In this document: piece by piece, positions 217 through 45,625 of the stretch | How the letters are laid out: every line of letters begins with the position of its first letter | How positions within the stretch are numbered: the stretch's first letter is position 1 | From: a bacterium | GTDB lineage: Bacteria; Cyanobacteriota; Vampirovibrionia; Gastranaerophilales; Gastranaerophilaceae | Reading direction: 5' to 3' | DNA length: 53,827 nucleotides | Assembly (NCBI GenBank): GCA_017942035.1 | Contig: JAGAVG010000010.1 | Span: 1 to 53,827, forward strand | Position numbers and translations under genes: made by a program | Notes under the pieces: model-generated | What the model saw: only the letters and a program-made list of their open reading frames with translations | Told to the model about the DNA's origin: nothing | Databases searched by the model: none

Positions 217-383
217 GCATCATTTTTTATATTTTGGTGCATGCAGGCCTGAAATCCAATAAAACATACCCTTTAAAAATTCAAAAAATCATCAAAAAAC
301 GACAATAGACCACTTGAAAATTGGCGGAAAATATTGTATAATAAGGCTATAGAAAACTCGCATCAAAATATAAAATTTGGTGC
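217..383. repeat. prepilin leader repeat, copy 1 (extended homology to 476)
   Basis: A block of 167 bp bounded by two 24-bp imperfect palindromes (217-240 and 360-383; arms GCA-C/T-CA ... TGGTGC). It is repeated at 7691-7856 and, inverted, at 24041-24207. Homology to the third copy continues to about 476, giving 260 bp in both. It lies just upstream of the minus-strand prepilin fragment, as the other two copies lie upstream of their genes. The interval 177-526 holds no other gene. Confidence 0.9.
314..342 (+). promoter_or_regulatory. sigma-70 promoter inside leader repeat copy 1, pointing away from the prepilin gene
   Basis: TTGAAA (314-319), 17-nt spacer, TATAAT (337-342). Both boxes and the spacer length are identical in all three repeat copies. 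Transcription would start near 349 and run almost at once into the palindrome at 360-383 followed by six T (385-390), which looks like an intrinsic terminator. Confidence 0.75.
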
Positions 384-3592: not shown

Positions 3593-3771
3593 CGTCATTG
3601 CGAGGAGCGTAAGCGACGCGGCAATCCAGTTAAACAATAGGCGCTAAGTCTTTAAGTCTTTAAGACGATAAGTTCTTTACCGTAAAGAACTTAGCATCAT
3701 ATCGTCTTAACGTCCTAAGCTTGTAGGGTAGACTTCAGTCTACCAGCTTAACTTTCGCTCACAATGACGAT
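3593..3771. repeat. repeat island downstream of uvrB (REP-like, TTAAGACG tract, GTAGAC palindrome)
   Basis: The 327-bp gap between uvrB and adhE holds, in order: a REP-like unit (3593-3629, CGTCATTGCGAGG ... GGCAATCCAG), a TTAAGACG-type tract with an internal hairpin TTCTTTACCGTAAAGAA (3636-3720), a 22-bp GTAGAC palindrome (3723-3744), and a second half-unit of the REP-like repeat (about 3752-3771). No coding signal is seen. The same families recur in other gaps of the window. Confidence 0.75.
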
Positions 3772-6693: not shown

Positions 6694-7647
6694 TTATTCG
6701 GAACATTTGTGTTTACCATTCCAAGATAATTTTTCCGGACATTTTAAATAATCCAAATTTTCAAATGATAATACCCATGCGGTTTGACATGCCAGACAGC
6801 GACCAGCTTTGTATGCTTCAAAAGAAAACCAATAATTGCTATATCCTTCGGTACCATAAGGAATTAAAAAGCCCTCTTTTGTCAGAAAAAATTGAAATAT
6901 TCCAGAATGTCCTTTTATTCTAATATCTAAATCTCCGCAGCCGTTATTTTTAGGTAACCAATAGTTACACTCATTAGCGCGATGGTAATATCTAACACGT
7001 ACATCCCCGCCTGCTAACCTTACGTCATGACCTTTGGGAGGTTTATCAAACTTCATATATTTATCGAAGATATTCCAAATGTCATTATTATTGCTAAGTC
7101 CCCAGTTGTCAGGAGTTCCTAATTCAGCAACGGCAAAATTAGTAGCTTGGGATAGGACGCTGTACGTTCTTTTTAGTTCAGTAATAATCCTTCGTGTCTT
7201 GTGATTTTCAATTAATGTTGGCAAAGTCATCGCCGCAACAACCCCGATTATCCCGAGAGTGATTAAGACTTCTGCCAAGGTGAAGGCACATTTTTTTCTC
7301 CCTCGCCCCTTGTGGGAGAGCGAAATTGCGTACGGACGTAGCAAAGCGAGTCCGAATAGCGGAACAGCGAGGGCGGATAGTCCCAAAGGACTAAAAGCCC
7401 GAGTCTGTGGAGCGTGGAGCAATTTCAAGACGGGGTCGGGGTGAGGGGTTATTGTTGCGTTAGCGGTGGTAGGATTTTTCTTCGTCATTGCGAGCGAACG
7501 GAGTGAGCGTGGCAATCCAGTTATTAATGGTAGACTAAAGTCTACCCTACTATTTACTCCCTCGCCCCTTGTGGGAGAGGGTCGGGGTGAGGGGTTAACT
7601 AGCTTGCCTTCTTGAACTCTTGTCCTCTGTTCTTCTAATATATTCAT
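6694..7647 (-). CDS. prepilin-type protein with a long repeat-derived N-terminal extension
   Basis: This is a secreted, inner-membrane-anchored pilin or pseudopilin (type IV pilus/type II secretion family). The prepilin signal AFTLAEVLITLGIIGVVAAM is complete, with Glu at +5 and Ala at -1 rather than the usual Gly, followed by a helix and a roughly 160-residue globular domain with several cysteines. Unusually, more than 120 residues precede the signal (typical leaders are 5-25). They are dispersed repeats read as protein: NPSPRPSPTRGEG, SRVDFSLP and SLRSLAMTK from units at 7556-7596, 7529-7550 and 7483-7520, then an expanded unit at 7300-7451. ATG 7645-7647 has a strong AAAGGAGG. A later internal start cannot be excluded. 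The leader repeat lies 44 bp upstream. Which pilus or pseudopilus it joins is unknown. Confidence 0.85.
   Translation of the reverse strand: MNILEEQRTRVQEGKLVNPSPRPSPTRGEGVNSRVDFSLPLITGLPRSLRSLAMTKKNPTTANATITPHPDPVLKLLHAPQTRAFSPLGLSALAVPLFGLALLRPYAISLSHKGRGRKKCAFTLAEVLITLGIIGVVAAMTLPTLIENHKTRRIITELKRTYSVLSQATNFAVAELGTPDNWGLSNNNDIWNIFDKYMKFDKPPKGHDVRLAGGDVRVRYYHRANECNYWLPKNNGCGDLDIRIKGHSGIFQFFLTKEGFLIPYGTEGYSNYWFSFEAYKAGRCLACQTAWVLSFENLDYLKCPEKLSWNGKHKCSE
7299..7451. repeat. expanded GCCCCTTGTGGGAGAG repeat inside the prepilin leader region
   Basis: The left half CCCTCGCCCCTTGTGGGAGAG (7302-7322) and the right half GGTCGGGGTGAGGGGTT (7435-7451) of a unit that is intact at 7556-7596 are here separated by about 110 bp of different sequence. 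A second split copy is at 37577-37681. Confidence 0.65.
7483..7596. repeat. REP-like unit, GTAGAC palindrome and GCCCCTTGTGGG unit in tandem
   Basis: The REP-like unit (7483-7520, GTCATTGCGAGCG ... GGCAATCCAG), the 22-bp palindrome GGTAGACTAAAGTCTACC plus CTAC (7529-7550) and an intact GCCCCTTGTGGGAGAGG unit (7556-7596) lie in tandem inside the coding frame of the prepilin gene. Confidence 0.75.
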
Positions 7648-7690
7648 CCTTTCAGCCTCCTTTAAAGCTTAAACTACTCATTAAATTCAT

Positions 7691-7856
7691 GCACCATAAT
7701 TTATATTTTGGTGCGAGTTGGCCTGAAATCCACTAAAACATACCTTCTTAAAATTCAAAAAATTCACAAAAACGACAAATGACCACTTGAAAATTGGTGG
7801 AAAATATTGTATAATAAGGCTATAAAAAACTCGCACCAAAATATAAAATTTGGTGC
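7691..7856. repeat. prepilin leader repeat, copy 2
   Basis: 166 bp with the same organisation as copies 1 and 3. The end palindromes are at 7691-7714 and 7833-7856; the latter has perfect 8-bp arms, GCACCAAA and TTTGGTGC. The terminal 28 bp form inverted repeats that differ at only about two positions. It lacks the 93-bp outer extension shared by copies 1 and 3. It ends 44 bp upstream of the prepilin start at 7647. Confidence 0.9.
7787..7815 (+). promoter_or_regulatory. sigma-70 promoter inside leader repeat copy 2, antisense to the prepilin gene
   Basis: TTGAAA (7787-7792), 17-nt spacer, TATAAT (7810-7815), followed by the palindrome 7833-7856 and ATTTTTTG. It is conserved in all three copies. 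Confidence 0.75.
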
Positions 7857-7915
7857 ATTTTTTGTGCCTCAAATTCGTCTTGTAATGACAAAAAACTGTT
7901 CCGTTTTATAATAGG

Positions 7916-23922: not shown

Positions 23923-24040
23923 TAAGAAGACGCTAAGACGTTAAGGCGATAAGACGTTAAGAAGTTTCGTAATAACATGTCATTTCGAACGTCGGATTGA
24001 CCTCCGTGTTTCAGAATCTCATAATTTTAACGCAAAAAAC
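23923..24040. repeat. repeat tract joined to leader repeat copy 3
   Basis: A TTAAGACG-type tract (23923-23965) runs into a 93-bp segment (23948-24040) nearly identical to 384-476 in inverted orientation. It contains an ELVSAS-type unit with ACCTCCGTGTTTCAGAATCTC. The gap 23920-24249 holds only this tract and the leader repeat. Confidence 0.8.
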
Positions 24041-24207
24041 GCACCAAATTTTATATTTTGATGCGAGTTTTTTATAGCCTTATTATACAATATTTTCCAC
24101 CAATTTTCAAGTGGTCTTTTGTCGTTTTTTGATGATTTTTCGGATTTTGAAATGGTATGTTTTAGTAAGTTTCAGGCCTACTCGCACCAAAATATAAATT
24201 ATGGTGC
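24041..24207. repeat. prepilin leader repeat, copy 3
   Basis: 167 bp with end palindromes at 24041-24064 and 24184-24207. With its outer extension it matches copy 1 over 260 bp (23948-24207 against 217-476, inverted). It ends 42 bp before the prepilin ATG at 24250. The short downstream sequence ATGAATTTA is also shared with copy 2. Confidence 0.9.
24082..24110 (-). promoter_or_regulatory. sigma-70 promoter inside leader repeat copy 3, pointing away from the prepilin gene
   Basis: On the minus strand: TTGAAA (24105-24110), 17-nt spacer, TATAAT (24082-24087). Its transcript would reach the palindrome 24041-24064 and then GTTTTTTGCG. Confidence 0.75.
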
Positions 24208-24249
24208 ATGAATTTAAAGGATAATTTAAGAAAAACGGAGGATAAAAGT

Positions 24250-24984
24250 ATGATAAATAGAGACAAACGAGAAGCAACATGTCATGTTGAACTAGTAAGT
24301 AGTAGGGTAGACTTTAGTCTACCAGAAAAGCTGGATTGCCACGCTTCGCTCGCAATGACGAAAACCGCGTTTACATTAGCGGAGGTTTTGATTACTCTCG
24401 GGATAATCGGTATTGTTGCGGTGATGACATTGCCGGCGTTGATTACTAAGCATCAGAAAAAAGTCGTTGCCACGAGGGTTAAGCAGTTTGCGTCTGTTTG
24501 GCAACAGGCTTACAGGCAGGTTGAATATGAACAAGGAACAGACTTGTTTTGGGGTACTTTAGTTGCAAAAGATCCGGAATCTACATTCGATTTTTACAAT
24601 GAAACTTATGGTAAATATGTTAGAACTATGAAAGTTGAAAAATCGCAGTATGGAATTACAGGTGCACTTCAAAACGGTTCGGGCTTTTATTTTTACAGAA
24701 CAGCAGGGCAACCTGATTTAAGCGGTTGTATATATCTAATTTTTTGTCCGTATTACAAAGATTGCAAGCAATTAGCTGATAACGGACAGTTTGGAGATTC
24801 AGAGACTATTTCTGATGGCAAAAAGACTTTCGGTTTTTGGGCAAATGGTGCTCCACCTACTTATTCTTGGAACGGAACAAGAGAATGGCTGATGCAAAGA
24901 TGCTCTACTTGGCAAAAAGGTTTTTGCACAACACTTATCCGATATGACGGCTGGGAAATCAAGGATGATTATCCCGCTTGGTAA
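24250..24984 (+). CDS. prepilin-type protein with repeat-derived N-terminal leader
   Basis: A pilin-like secreted protein of 244 residues. The prepilin signal is AFTLAEVLITLGIIGIVAVM (Glu at +5, Ala at -1), followed by a helix (KVVATRVKQFASVWQQAY) and a C-terminal globular domain with six or more cysteines (SGCIYLIFCPYYKDC, QRCSTWQKGFC). The roughly 37-residue leader is a mosaic of three dispersed repeats: CHVELVS (ELVSAS type), SRVDFSLP (palindrome 24302-24323) and LDCHASLAMTK (REP-like 24331-24360). ATG 24250 has GGAGG 8 nt upstream; an upstream ATG at 24208 lies at the edge of the leader repeat and lacks one. Internal ATG 24358 could restart just before the signal. Helix and leader block are paralogous to the gene at 6694-7647; the C-terminal domains differ. 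Confidence 0.87.
   Translation: MINRDKREATCHVELVSSRVDFSLPEKLDCHASLAMTKTAFTLAEVLITLGIIGIVAVMTLPALITKHQKKVVATRVKQFASVWQQAYRQVEYEQGTDLFWGTLVAKDPESTFDFYNETYGKYVRTMKVEKSQYGITGALQNGSGFYFYRTAGQPDLSGCIYLIFCPYYKDCKQLADNGQFGDSETISDGKKTFGFWANGAPPTYSWNGTREWLMQRCSTWQKGFCTTLIRYDGWEIKDDYPAW
24302..24360. repeat. GTAGAC palindrome and REP-like unit inside the prepilin coding frame
   Basis: The 22-bp palindrome GTAGGGTAGACTTTAGTC-TACC (24302-24323) is followed by a REP-like unit (24331-24360, CTGGATTGCCACGC ... CGCAATGACG). Both occur elsewhere between genes; here they are translated. Confidence 0.85.
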
Positions 24985-27711: not shown

Positions 27712-28033
27712 CATGTCATCCTGAATTTATTTCAGGATTTTTGTAATAAAAGACGATAAGACGCTAAGTCTTTAAGACGTTAAGTTCTTTACCGTAAAGA
27801 ACTTCGTATCTTATCGTCCTAAGATACTAAGGCACTAAGGAAGCATGTCATCCTGAACTTGTTTCAGGATCTCGTGTGGAAGAGCAGAAGGCAAGAGGTT
27901 AAGATGGCAAGCTAATTAACCCCTCACTCCAACCCTCTCCCACAAGAGGCGAGGGGGGTTCTTCTAGTAGGATAGACTTTAGTCTACCGGAAAAACTGGA
28001 TTGCCGCGCTCACTACGTTCGCTCGCAATGACG
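27712..28033. repeat. composite repeat island downstream of the TPR gene
   Basis: This gap contains, in order: an ELVSAS-type unit (27712-27742), a TTAAGACG tract with the hairpin TTCTTTACCGTAAAGAA (27750-27840), a second ELVSAS-type unit (27843-27873), the GCCCCTTGTGGG-type unit in reverse (27918-27957), the 22-bp GTAGAC palindrome (27967-27988) and a REP-like unit (27996-28033). All five repeat families of the window are present here. No coding signal is seen between 27706 and the tandem repeat at 28096. Confidence 0.8.
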
Positions 28034-39193: not shown

Positions 39194-39322
39194 GTCATTG
39201 CGAATGTAGCTTGGCAATTCTGTTTTATAGGTAGACTAAAGTCTACCCTACTGCCTTTTATTCCCTCTCCCACAAGGGGCGAGGGAATCCTTACTTACTT
39301 ACTTACGTACTTACTTACTTAC
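39194..39322. repeat. repeat island: REP-like unit, GTAGAC palindrome, GCCCCTTGTGGG unit and TTAC tetranucleotide tract
   Basis: A REP-like unit (39194-39221), the 22-bp palindrome (39230-39251) and a GCCCCTTGTGGG-type unit in reverse (39262-39287) lead into eight TTAC units (39291-39322, one reading GTAC). The gap 39187-39486 holds no gene; it also contains a promoter and a second tandem repeat. Confidence 0.8.
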
Positions 39323-39486: not shown

Positions 39487-41268
39487 ATGGCAGATGGAAT
39501 TGGACAAACTCGCATTACGATAGGCAGAAAACAGGGTGTTACACAGGCCTTGAAGGCAATGGTTGAAGATAAGAAGATGAAACTTTCGGACGGAAGTATT
39601 TCAAAATCTGAATGGAATGCGACGGTGAAAGTTTTGGATGAAATTCAGGCAAACAGAAAGGCGAATAATCAGACGAGTATTTTCGGCAAAGGTTATTTGG
39701 TACATGAAGGCGATAATATTGATTTTACGGCAGATGAGATGGCGAAAATATACAAGGCTATGGGGGTAGAAGTTTCCGAAAAACCTGAACAACCGGCTGC
39801 AGTAAAACCGGAACAGTCAGCGTCAGCACCTCCTGAACAACCGGCTGCAGCCAAACCAGAACCGCCGGTTACAGCAACTTCCGCACAGCCGGCACAAGCT
39901 CCAAAAAATGAATTGCAAGAACAATTTAATAATGATTCTAAAAAAACTAAATTAGGTGCAGCCATTCCAACTTCGGATACATTGAAAGAAAATGGTTTTG
40001 GTTTCCATCCTGAACCAACCGTGCATAATTTTGGCGGTCAACAGCATCAAGTAGACGCCTATGGATATAAAGATGAAAACGGCCTGCATTATTCTCTGGA
40101 TAAAAATGGCGGTAAAACTTATGTAGATAAAGAGGGAAATTCTATTAGAGTATCTGAATTTGAGTCGCAATTCGCATTTCCGGGAAGCACTATGGTTTCA
40201 TACACAAAAAAAGGCGGAAATTTTAAAGATGAGGTAATCTATGGAGCTGATGGGAAAGCTATTCAGGGAAAAACAACAGTAATAAAAGAAGATGGAACTA
40301 CTATATCTTATGAATACAAATATGATTCAAATGGTAATAAAGTTGTACAAAACAACAATTCACAACCGGCTCAACTTAATATAACTCCAAAACCATTGAA
40401 AGAACCTTCTATAACAAGTTCTATGCATTTAGCTTTCTTATCGGATCGTTATGCCGATAAAAATGGTGCGGATTTGCGTCCGGATGTCAGTGTTGTTGAT
40501 TTCGAGGCTATTAAAAATGGTGGGGACGCTCCTCGTAAATTTAATAACTGTAAGCAATCTGTAAAGGTTAATGATGATGGAAGCAAATCCTTTACTTATA
40601 TGTATAAGGATGCTGGCGGAAGAGTTTACACTGATTATAGAACGGTTATAGAGAATCCGGATGGATCTTTAAAAGTTACAACTTCTATAGAATGTGAGAA
40701 TGGTCAATATAGTGATAAGTCAACAACATATAAAAAAGAACCTATGGGTTTAGTACGAGTTTCGCATGATATTGGTAATGATGGATATATTGATAGTGAA
40801 ACTATCAGAACTTCTGATGGTAAACAAATTGCTTTAATTGAATATGGCTATAATAAAGAAAAGGATTTAAAAACTACGGAAATTGAATTGAGTCATAAAG
40901 ATGGTTCATCAACTAGTATTAAATCAAATACGGTTAATGAAAAAGAAGTTTTAAGAGAAGTACATCACATGGAAGATGGTCATCAAACAAGCTTTGCGCA
41001 GTACGGAGAAAACAATCAATTAATTTCACGTTCCGAAACTTCATATTATCCTAGTGGAACTTTTGAAGGTCTAGAGGGCAAGTTTGAGAAAGAAGAATTA
41101 ATATATGATAAGAATAATAAACTCGAAACAAAAATTGAATATTCTTATGAAAAAGACAAAGATGGCTATTATGTAAAAATCACTAAGGAGACAAATTTCC
41201 AAACCGGTGAAGTTAAAACGTATAGATCCGATGAGACCTCTCTTCATCTGAATATGACATTAGATTAA
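39487..41268 (+). CDS. large, repeat-rich protein of unknown function, probably surface or exported
   Basis: No family is recognised. The 593-residue product starts MADGIGQTRITIGRKQG. A helical N-terminal part contains an EF-hand-like LSDGSISKSEW (about 36-46), followed by a Pro/Ala/Glu linker (about 98-140: KPEQPAAVKPEQ, APPEQPAAAKPEP). The rest is beta-rich with repeated turns of the type DGSLKVTTSIE, DGTTISYEYKYDSNG, NENNQL-like loops, resembling the YD/MORN-like repeats of surface and toxin-shell proteins. No signal peptide or membrane anchor is seen. AAAGGAG lies 6 nt before the ATG. Its leader carries tandem repeats, so expression may vary. Confidence 0.75.
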   Translation: MADGIGQTRITIGRKQGVTQALKAMVEDKKMKLSDGSISKSEWNATVKVLDEIQANRKANNQTSIFGKGYLVHEGDNIDFTADEMAKIYKAMGVEVSEKPEQPAAVKPEQSASAPPEQPAAAKPEPPVTATSAQPAQAPKNELQEQFNNDSKKTKLGAAIPTSDTLKENGFGFHPEPTVHNFGGQQHQVDAYGYKDENGLHYSLDKNGGKTYVDKEGNSIRVSEFESQFAFPGSTMVSYTKKGGNFKDEVIYGADGKAIQGKTTVIKEDGTTISYEYKYDSNGNKVVQNNNSQPAQLNITPKPLKEPSITSSMHLAFLSDRYADKNGADLRPDVSVVDFEAIKNGGDAPRKFNNCKQSVKVNDDGSKSFTYMYKDAGGRVYTDYRTVIENPDGSLKVTTSIECENGQYSDKSTTYKKEPMGLVRVSHDIGNDGYIDSETIRTSDGKQIALIEYGYNKEKDLKTTEIELSHKDGSSTSIKSNTVNEKEVLREVHHMEDGHQTSFAQYGENNQLISRSETSYYPSGTFEGLEGKFEKEELIYDKNNKLETKIEYSYEKDKDGYYVKITKETNFQTGEVKTYRSDETSLHLNMTLD

Positions 41269-45479: not shown

Positions 45480-45625
45480 AGTGACTTAAAGTCTTAGTAT
45501 CTTAGCGTCTTTTTTTAGCCTTCCTGCCCTCTGTTCCATTGGTAGACTAAAGTCTACCCTACCATTCTCACAAAGAGAGAGGGTAAGAGATGCTGAAATA
45601 AATTCAGCATGACAGGTTCTACTCG
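45480..45625. repeat. repeat island between pilT and lysS
   Basis: A TTAAGACG-type tract (45480-45512), the 22-bp GTAGAC palindrome (45541-45562), a degenerate GCCCCTTGTGGG-type remnant (45563-45582), an ELVSAS-type inverted unit (45586-45612) and a fragment like the REP end (GTCGCAATGAA). No coding signal is seen. Confidence 0.65.

Follow-up and report, generated by a model that had tools for sequence, protein, structure and literature searches.

Our analyses indicate that the N-terminal leaders of a very large prepilin family are commonly in-frame mosaics of dispersed repeats, and we consider it likely that the cleaved leader serves a large repertoire of phase-variable pilins as a disposable coding slot, its mosaics being derived from a few composites exchanged among paralogues. 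The 1.99-Mb genome, assembled in 84 contigs, contains 120 exact copies of the signal FTLAEVLITLG and 112 matches to PF07963. A broader proposal, which we regard as evenly poised, is that several genera of the Gastranaerophilales each carry approximately 50–120 individually phase-variable prepilins per genome, mostly OFF, with the leader as their common evolvable slot, filled here by in-frame repeat mosaics that follow some 110 invertible promoters, with promoter–leader cassettes passing between pilin bodies, and in sister genera by other repeats and poly-G switches.

One member of this family (P0001) is an open reading frame at 24208–24984 on the forward strand of the window (the whole stretch of 53,827 nt that was analysed), with a likely true start at the ATG at 24250, preceded by GGAGG at 24237–24241. 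Its score against PF07963 is weak (17.4 bits vs. a cut-off of 21.2), while TIGR02532 is above cut-off both for this protein and for the second prepilin of the window (P0002, gene 6694–7647), which is also above cut-off for PF07963; a DUF6613 match covers residues 78–256 of P0001, i.e., the mature part. Cleavage is predicted between Ala and Phe at 24369/24370, FTLAEVLITLG starting at 24370, and the 40-residue leader (24250–24369, forward strand) reads MINRDKREATCHVELVSSRVDFSLPEKLDCHASLAMTKTA, followed directly by FTLAEVLITLG. The first-pass annotation had described this leader as a mosaic of three dispersed repeats translated as CHVELVS, SRVDFSLP, and LDCHASLAMTK, and the sequence is as described. 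CHVELVS is a shortened copy of the TGTCATnCTGAACTnGTTTCAG repeat (repeat C), whose truncated half, beginning TGTCATnCTGAACT, lies at 24278–24295, with further copies at 27712–27738 and 27844–27870; SRVDFSLP corresponds to the palindrome GGTAGACTTTAGTCTACC (24306–24323) plus a GTAG tag, together forming repeat A (24302–24323); and LDCHASLAMTK corresponds to repeat B, which runs from GGATTGCC to GCTCGCAATGAC (24333–24359), all on the forward strand.

The second prepilin gene (6694–7647, reverse strand) has a mosaic leader of 121 residues at 7285–7647, with repeat A at 7529–7546 on the same strand. Different repeats in a different order had been thought to fill the same position in this gene; other repeats are indeed present in the slot, but those shared by the two genes are not reordered, since A precedes B in both. 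The conservation of the signal helix after the cleavage site was confirmed. Between genes of the window, repeat A is found at 3727–3744 (forward strand), 39230–39247, and 45541–45558 (both reverse strand), and a composite of C, D, A, and B, in leader-like order and with a frame-breaking A–B spacing of 36, is located at 27712–28032 (forward strand). A search of the window against Rfam gave no match at the gathering score.

The genome-wide comparison of FTLAEVLITLG genes that had been proposed as a check was carried out on 115 of the 120 sites. A strong Shine–Dalgarno (SD) sequence and an in-frame ATG are present in 96 of the 103 sites at which the upstream frame closes inside the stretch examined; the leaders chosen (101 complete) range from 4 to 135 residues with a median of 36, and the combined length of all 115 is about 16 kb, or 0.8% of the genome. 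Listed repeat modules occur in 69 of the 101 complete leaders and are lacking in 32, of which 27 are short (at most 23 residues; they run from 4 to 23 aa, as counted from the leader list). Ordinary short leaders had been named in advance as the finding that would speak against the mosaic; such leaders exist as this minority of 27, which leaves the claim standing and shows that the mosaic is dispensable. The proteins share with type IV prepilins the elements of a class III signal (a hydrophilic leader, Phe at +1, Glu at 5, and a hydrophobic helix) and a prepilin peptidase domain that is encoded by one gene in the genome. They differ from the standard leader of 6–26 residues ending in Gly (as given in PMC4471445) in having leaders of up to 135 aa and in carrying Ala at −1 in 106 of the 115 leaders, Gly being found in nine.

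Several further members were noted in this survey. Three more A-containing reading frames are prepilins with variant motifs. Seven leaders (L044, L065, L067, L075, L077, L091, and L098) contain partial signal copies (FTLAEVF..HFAGRRKTA) in tandem ahead of the real signal, and these copies could possibly provide extra cleavage sites. At L237 (C20:25214), repeat A precedes the remains of a broken prepilin gene, the signal of which ends in a stop, so that decaying copies exist, and the motif copies in L013 and in L084 (at 2082), with bodies truncated to 14 and 26 aa, are probable pseudogenes.

Repeat A has the build of the GTAG-tagged repetitive extragenic palindromes (REPs) as these are defined in PMC3733652, viz. 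a GTAG tag at one end, a short palindrome, and a high copy number. The genome contains 120 copies of its palindrome and 59 of GCTCGCAATGAC. Among the first 50 copies of A in contig order, 27 are located in prepilin leaders, in an open frame, and 23 in no reading frame of at least 80 aa, none being found within any other gene; thus all coding copies examined lie within prepilin leaders, and the leader repeats do occur elsewhere between genes, as had been claimed. The likeness to the GTAG REP/RAYT systems therefore includes the tag, the palindrome, more than 100 copies, and an extragenic location outside the pilin genes, but this assembly has no Y1_Tnp/RAYT gene (no matches to PF01797 in the genome), and mobilization of repeat A by a RAYT transposase in this genome was rejected for that reason. 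Within leaders the order of modules is near-invariant (A before B, 23:1; E2 before E3, 22:0; D before A, 9:0), the usual succession being C, then D or E, A, and B, followed by an FAGRRKTA segment or a partial signal copy, and no module is universal.

Module A is present in 48 of the 115 leaders, always in frame 0, and the other tightly defined patterns are likewise found at frame 0 only (B in 26 and E3 in 30 leaders; F with 22 hits and C1 with 18 hits, nine per strand), although the paralogues share ancestry and such counts overstate independence; the looser D, E1, C2, and C3 patterns are scattered over phases and were kept out of the frame evidence. Two tests were chosen that avoid circularity, stop counts in frame 0 being left unused because leaders are defined as open. 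At 81 of 83 anchored sites, the first SD–ATG after the upstream segment, located without regard to frame, shares the frame of the signal and reaches it without a stop; of the other two sites, one is without a strong SD and one is out of frame, and three sites with a weak anchor were excluded. Measured from A to the end of B, the spacing equals 1 modulo 3 in all 23 leader cases (37 in 14, 28 in seven, and 64 in two), whereas the 14 cases outside leaders are distributed 6/4/4 over the three classes. In leaders, a spacer of 9 occurs with the short form of B only and a spacer of 10 with the long form only; outside leaders, a spacer of 9 with the long form is seen three times, and the frame-breaking spacing of 36 is confined to these locations. 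The A–B spacing is thus frame-constrained in leaders only, and the leader copies are therefore constrained as coding sequence. The earlier view that the frame is kept far beyond chance is supported by both tests.

These results bear directly on the proposal that the repeats are untranslated, the true start being the ATG in ..LAMTKxA ahead of FTLAEV and everything upstream a 5′ untranslated region. Module B often offers an ATG 4–5 codons ahead of the signal, which would give a leader of textbook length, and misannotated N-termini are a usual explanation for REPs at gene starts (PMC3733652). However, the conserved upstream GGAGG–ATG is in frame and open at the 81 of 83 sites, leaders that end in module E (..SQRERVKHA before Phe) have no near ATG, the A–B spacing is constrained in leaders only, and the poly-G leaders of relatives (described below) are hardly ever open in any frame but that of the signal. 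We hold this reading to be scarcely tenable, and it was rejected by the start and spacing tests. The repeats are read here as inserted in frame in open reading frames, in the manner of the Rickettsia palindromic elements, of which several families per genome are reported as in-frame insertions in protein genes (PMC10969869). The likeness, which is by description, lies in palindromic repeats that are translated in frame inside protein genes and in the presence of more than one repeat family per genome; unlike the Rickettsia elements, which occur in unrelated genes, the coding A copies examined occur in a single paralogous family, always ahead of the cleavage site.

With regard to the origin of the mosaics, the first-pass annotation had suggested that every paralogue acquired its repeats by an insertion of its own at the same point. 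Repeat content does vary from leader to leader, and the leader slot of relatives holds different modules, so that repeats have been gained separately between genera. Within the genome, however, module A, of whose six frames two are open as read from its sequence (one of them on the other strand), is found in a single orientation and a single frame in all 42 open leaders that contain it (a 43rd had a stop), and module order is nearly fixed, on which grounds independent insertion in each paralogue is very improbable. The single orientation and frame and the near-fixed order, together with the intergenic composite of the same order at 27712–28032, suggest instead that repeats were inserted on few occasions and that the paralogues then probably exchanged and shortened a few composites. 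Similarity of leaders is uncoupled from that of bodies (Mantel r = 0.034, p = 0.11) and is weakly related to that of the upstream segments (r = 0.20, p = 0.001), and in 31 gene pairs with bodies more than 60% identical, leader 10-mers are mostly little shared. The decoupling of leaders and upstream segments from bodies, the different leaders on similar bodies in these 31 pairs, and the near-fixed order would also be expected if the mosaic were functional, its in-frame repeats acting as homology tracts for the exchange of promoter–leader cassettes or as RNA hairpins that tune translation. Such a function is in our judgment unlikely, although a more serious contender than independent insertion, as no module is universal and the 27 short leaders that lack modules, often preceded by the same upstream segment, point to a mosaic that is tolerated rather than required.

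Most genes of the family are preceded by a common segment of about 169 bp which contains the promoter-like sequence TTGAAA-17-TATAAT between 29-bp inverted repeats, each with an arm–spacer–arm structure. In the window, the segment of gene 24208–24984 extends over 24040–24208 (repeats at 24040–24068 and 24180–24208), its promoter-like site at 24082–24110 being on the reverse strand, facing away from the prepilin gene, with a terminator-like hairpin and T run at 24040–24065 (reverse strand) in front of this outward promoter. The corresponding putative invertible segment of gene 6694–7647 lies at 7690–7857 (promoter at 7787–7815, forward strand), and a third, with approximate ends, at 216–384 (promoter at 314–342, forward strand), its prepilin gene being truncated by the contig start; all three are in the OFF arrangement. 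Among 69 members, median pairwise identity is 87% (nucleotide) for the upstream segment, 56% for third codon positions of the signal, and 24% (amino acid) for the mature part beyond about 35 columns. The noncoding segment is more alike than its gene and is therefore homogenised or moving on its own. A pattern combining promoter and repeat matched 110 times in the genome but not at all in 23 relatives, including two from its own genus, and candidate scoring covered 40 of 160; an exact pattern scan of genome contigs for the segment gave no match, the own record perhaps being excluded from that collection.

Promoter direction could be read in 104 copies: 101 face away from the gene (OFF), two face towards it (ON; L003 and L249), and one (L042, ON-like) is cut by a contig end. 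At L249 the interior is reversed while both outer flanks are ordinary, and the arrangement is continuous inside one contig. In the OFF arrangement, the promoter runs straight into a hairpin and T run in 97 of the 101 copies, the gene-side flank being seen without such an element, and a prepilin gene follows within 650 nt behind the promoter in 71 copies, 29 being cut there; the one remaining copy, which has no prepilin by the motif used, adjoins a PF07963 match at C12:4103. Two minus-strand cases (at L044 and L065) were left out of the ON count, as a weak anchor had caught the segments of neighbours, and apparent ON copies without a gene were rejected as reverse views of OFF copies. The outward promoter of a neighbouring segment is located upstream of the prepilin at L022 (C11:1–1968), which has no usable SD–ATG and was not counted as an inversion.

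A promoter between inverted repeats upstream of a gene is the arrangement of an invertible promoter, and both orientations occur here, among paralogous copies only. The segment is thus most likely an invertible promoter (a phase switch) that is OFF in nearly all assembled copies, and inversion would take place in living cells, as the paralogous copies (two clear ON of 104 plus the one that is cut) suggest. A fixed regulatory or terminator element, with the ON copies rearranged or misassembled, would account for the presence of just two clear ON copies among 104 and for the fact that no dedicated recombinase was identified in the genome. This is also unlikely, and slightly more so than a functional mosaic: at L249 ordinary flanks and a reversed interior are continuous in one contig, the 141-bp overlap of the assembler far exceeds the 29-bp repeat, and the T run is on the non-gene side in 97 of 101 OFF copies. 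Contig ends share exactly 141 bp, likely the word size of the assembler, at many putative invertible segments and leaders, including the contig start of the window, so that the assembly breaks at these places. At the ends of contigs C1 and C17, one interior, seen nowhere else, is joined to two flanks; the case depends on an overlap of 141 bp in the assembly and may represent either a single locus in both states or two separate loci.

Preference for the invertible-promoter reading implies a recombinase that would act on the segment. Five PF00589 genes are present (two Xer-like, two longer and integrase-like, and one encoding a catalytic-only recombinase of 181 residues), none of which could be tied to the upstream segment. 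The catalytic-only tyrosine recombinase (L254; C69:88163–88705), a candidate invertase, is of similar size to FimB and FimE, and its homologues are present in many members of the family, including relatives without the segment. Invertible promoters (invertons) are known from fimS and from Bacteroides, and the present segments resemble them in having a promoter between inverted repeats before a surface-structure gene, with both orientations among copies; they are distinguished by about 110 near-identical copies, each at a different prepilin gene and almost all OFF, with orientations compared across paralogues. Up to 181 invertons in one strain are reported for gut bacteria in PMC11892184.

The FTLAEVLITLG motif is found in 14 of 39 genomes searched, with counts ranging from 0 to 120, and a 60-residue stretch of an own prepilin matches metagenome-assembled genomes (MAGs) of Candidatus Gastranaerophilales and Melainabacteria, as well as some under other names, e.g., Fusobacterium sp. 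CAG:439. Leaders of relatives were read for 43 signals in 40 stretches from three genomes (G016, G005, and G006). Those of G016 and G005 are also long mosaics, but of different modules, whereas the four read from G006 are mostly short; one G016 leader (in L121) is identical to that of L206, a Gastranaerophilales MAG. In 21 upstream stretches of G016 no 16-mer is common to at least eight, except for one repeat-C stretch.

Among 80 named loci of relatives, 66 of them with a readable signal, poly-G/C tracts of at least 8 lie at most 400 nt upstream of a signal in 34 of 43 cases, and G005 carries both such a tract and a mosaic. The stretch between tract and signal is open in the frame of the signal in 27 of 33 cases, and in the other frames in 0 and 2. 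Over all relatives covered, an SD–ATG is joined to an open leader in 31 of 38 tracts, the assembled length corresponding to ON in three and OFF in 28; of the remaining seven, six have a closed frame past the tract and one is without an SD–ATG. In these relatives, a homopolymer between start and body thus sets the reading frame, as in contingency loci, while in the own genome none of the 115 sites has a G/C tract of at least 7 within 500 nt. Homopolymer switches are known from many bacteria, and simple-sequence contingency loci with the repeat in the leader from Neisseria opa and pilC. The sister genera resemble the latter in that a tract between the start codon and the cleaved signal sets the frame; they differ in having many paralogous prepilin genes per genome, their tracts being known from assembled lengths.

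The disposable-slot reading may be set out as follows. Each cassette gene is led by a segment of about 169 bp with a putatively strong promoter between 29-bp inverted repeats, so that transcription would be set by promoter orientation in this species and the reading frame by tract length in sister genera. The ribosome would read the leader, after which prepilin peptidase would cut before Phe and the leader would be discarded. Because it is discarded, a cytoplasmic and presumably neutral leader would tolerate extra in-frame coding sequence, and intergenic repeat DNA could settle there, selection retaining only versions that are in frame and free of stops. The mosaics seen today would go back to a handful of composites that were shortened and passed between some 100 paralogues without regard to the mature domains, and in sister genera the same slot would have received other repeats or a poly-G/C tract. 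Weighing against the reading are a cleavage that is predicted from the signal, with −1 mostly Ala instead of the canonical Gly, and the expectation that leaders which were merely permissive might show the same in the prepilins of other bacteria.

Apparently new, as far as our searches show, are the confinement of repeats to the cleaved leader of one huge family, the recurrence of this pattern in sister genera with other repeats, and a set of near-identical putative invertons arrayed on pilin genes; searches confined to open-licence PMC articles gave no earlier report of such a system for Melainabacteria, Gastranaerophilales, or Vampirovibrionia. If the reading is correct, a little-known gut lineage of non-photosynthetic relatives of cyanobacteria possesses a very large switchable pilin repertoire, and a leader that is discarded accounts for the presence of repeat DNA and hypermutable tracts inside genes without harm to the product. 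It would also constitute a natural experiment on intergenic repeats turning coding, and predictions on surface variation in the gut could be derived from it and tested. Apart from the prepilin genes, the window contains a 48-nt tandem repeat at 39784–39903, within an open reading frame at 39487–41268.
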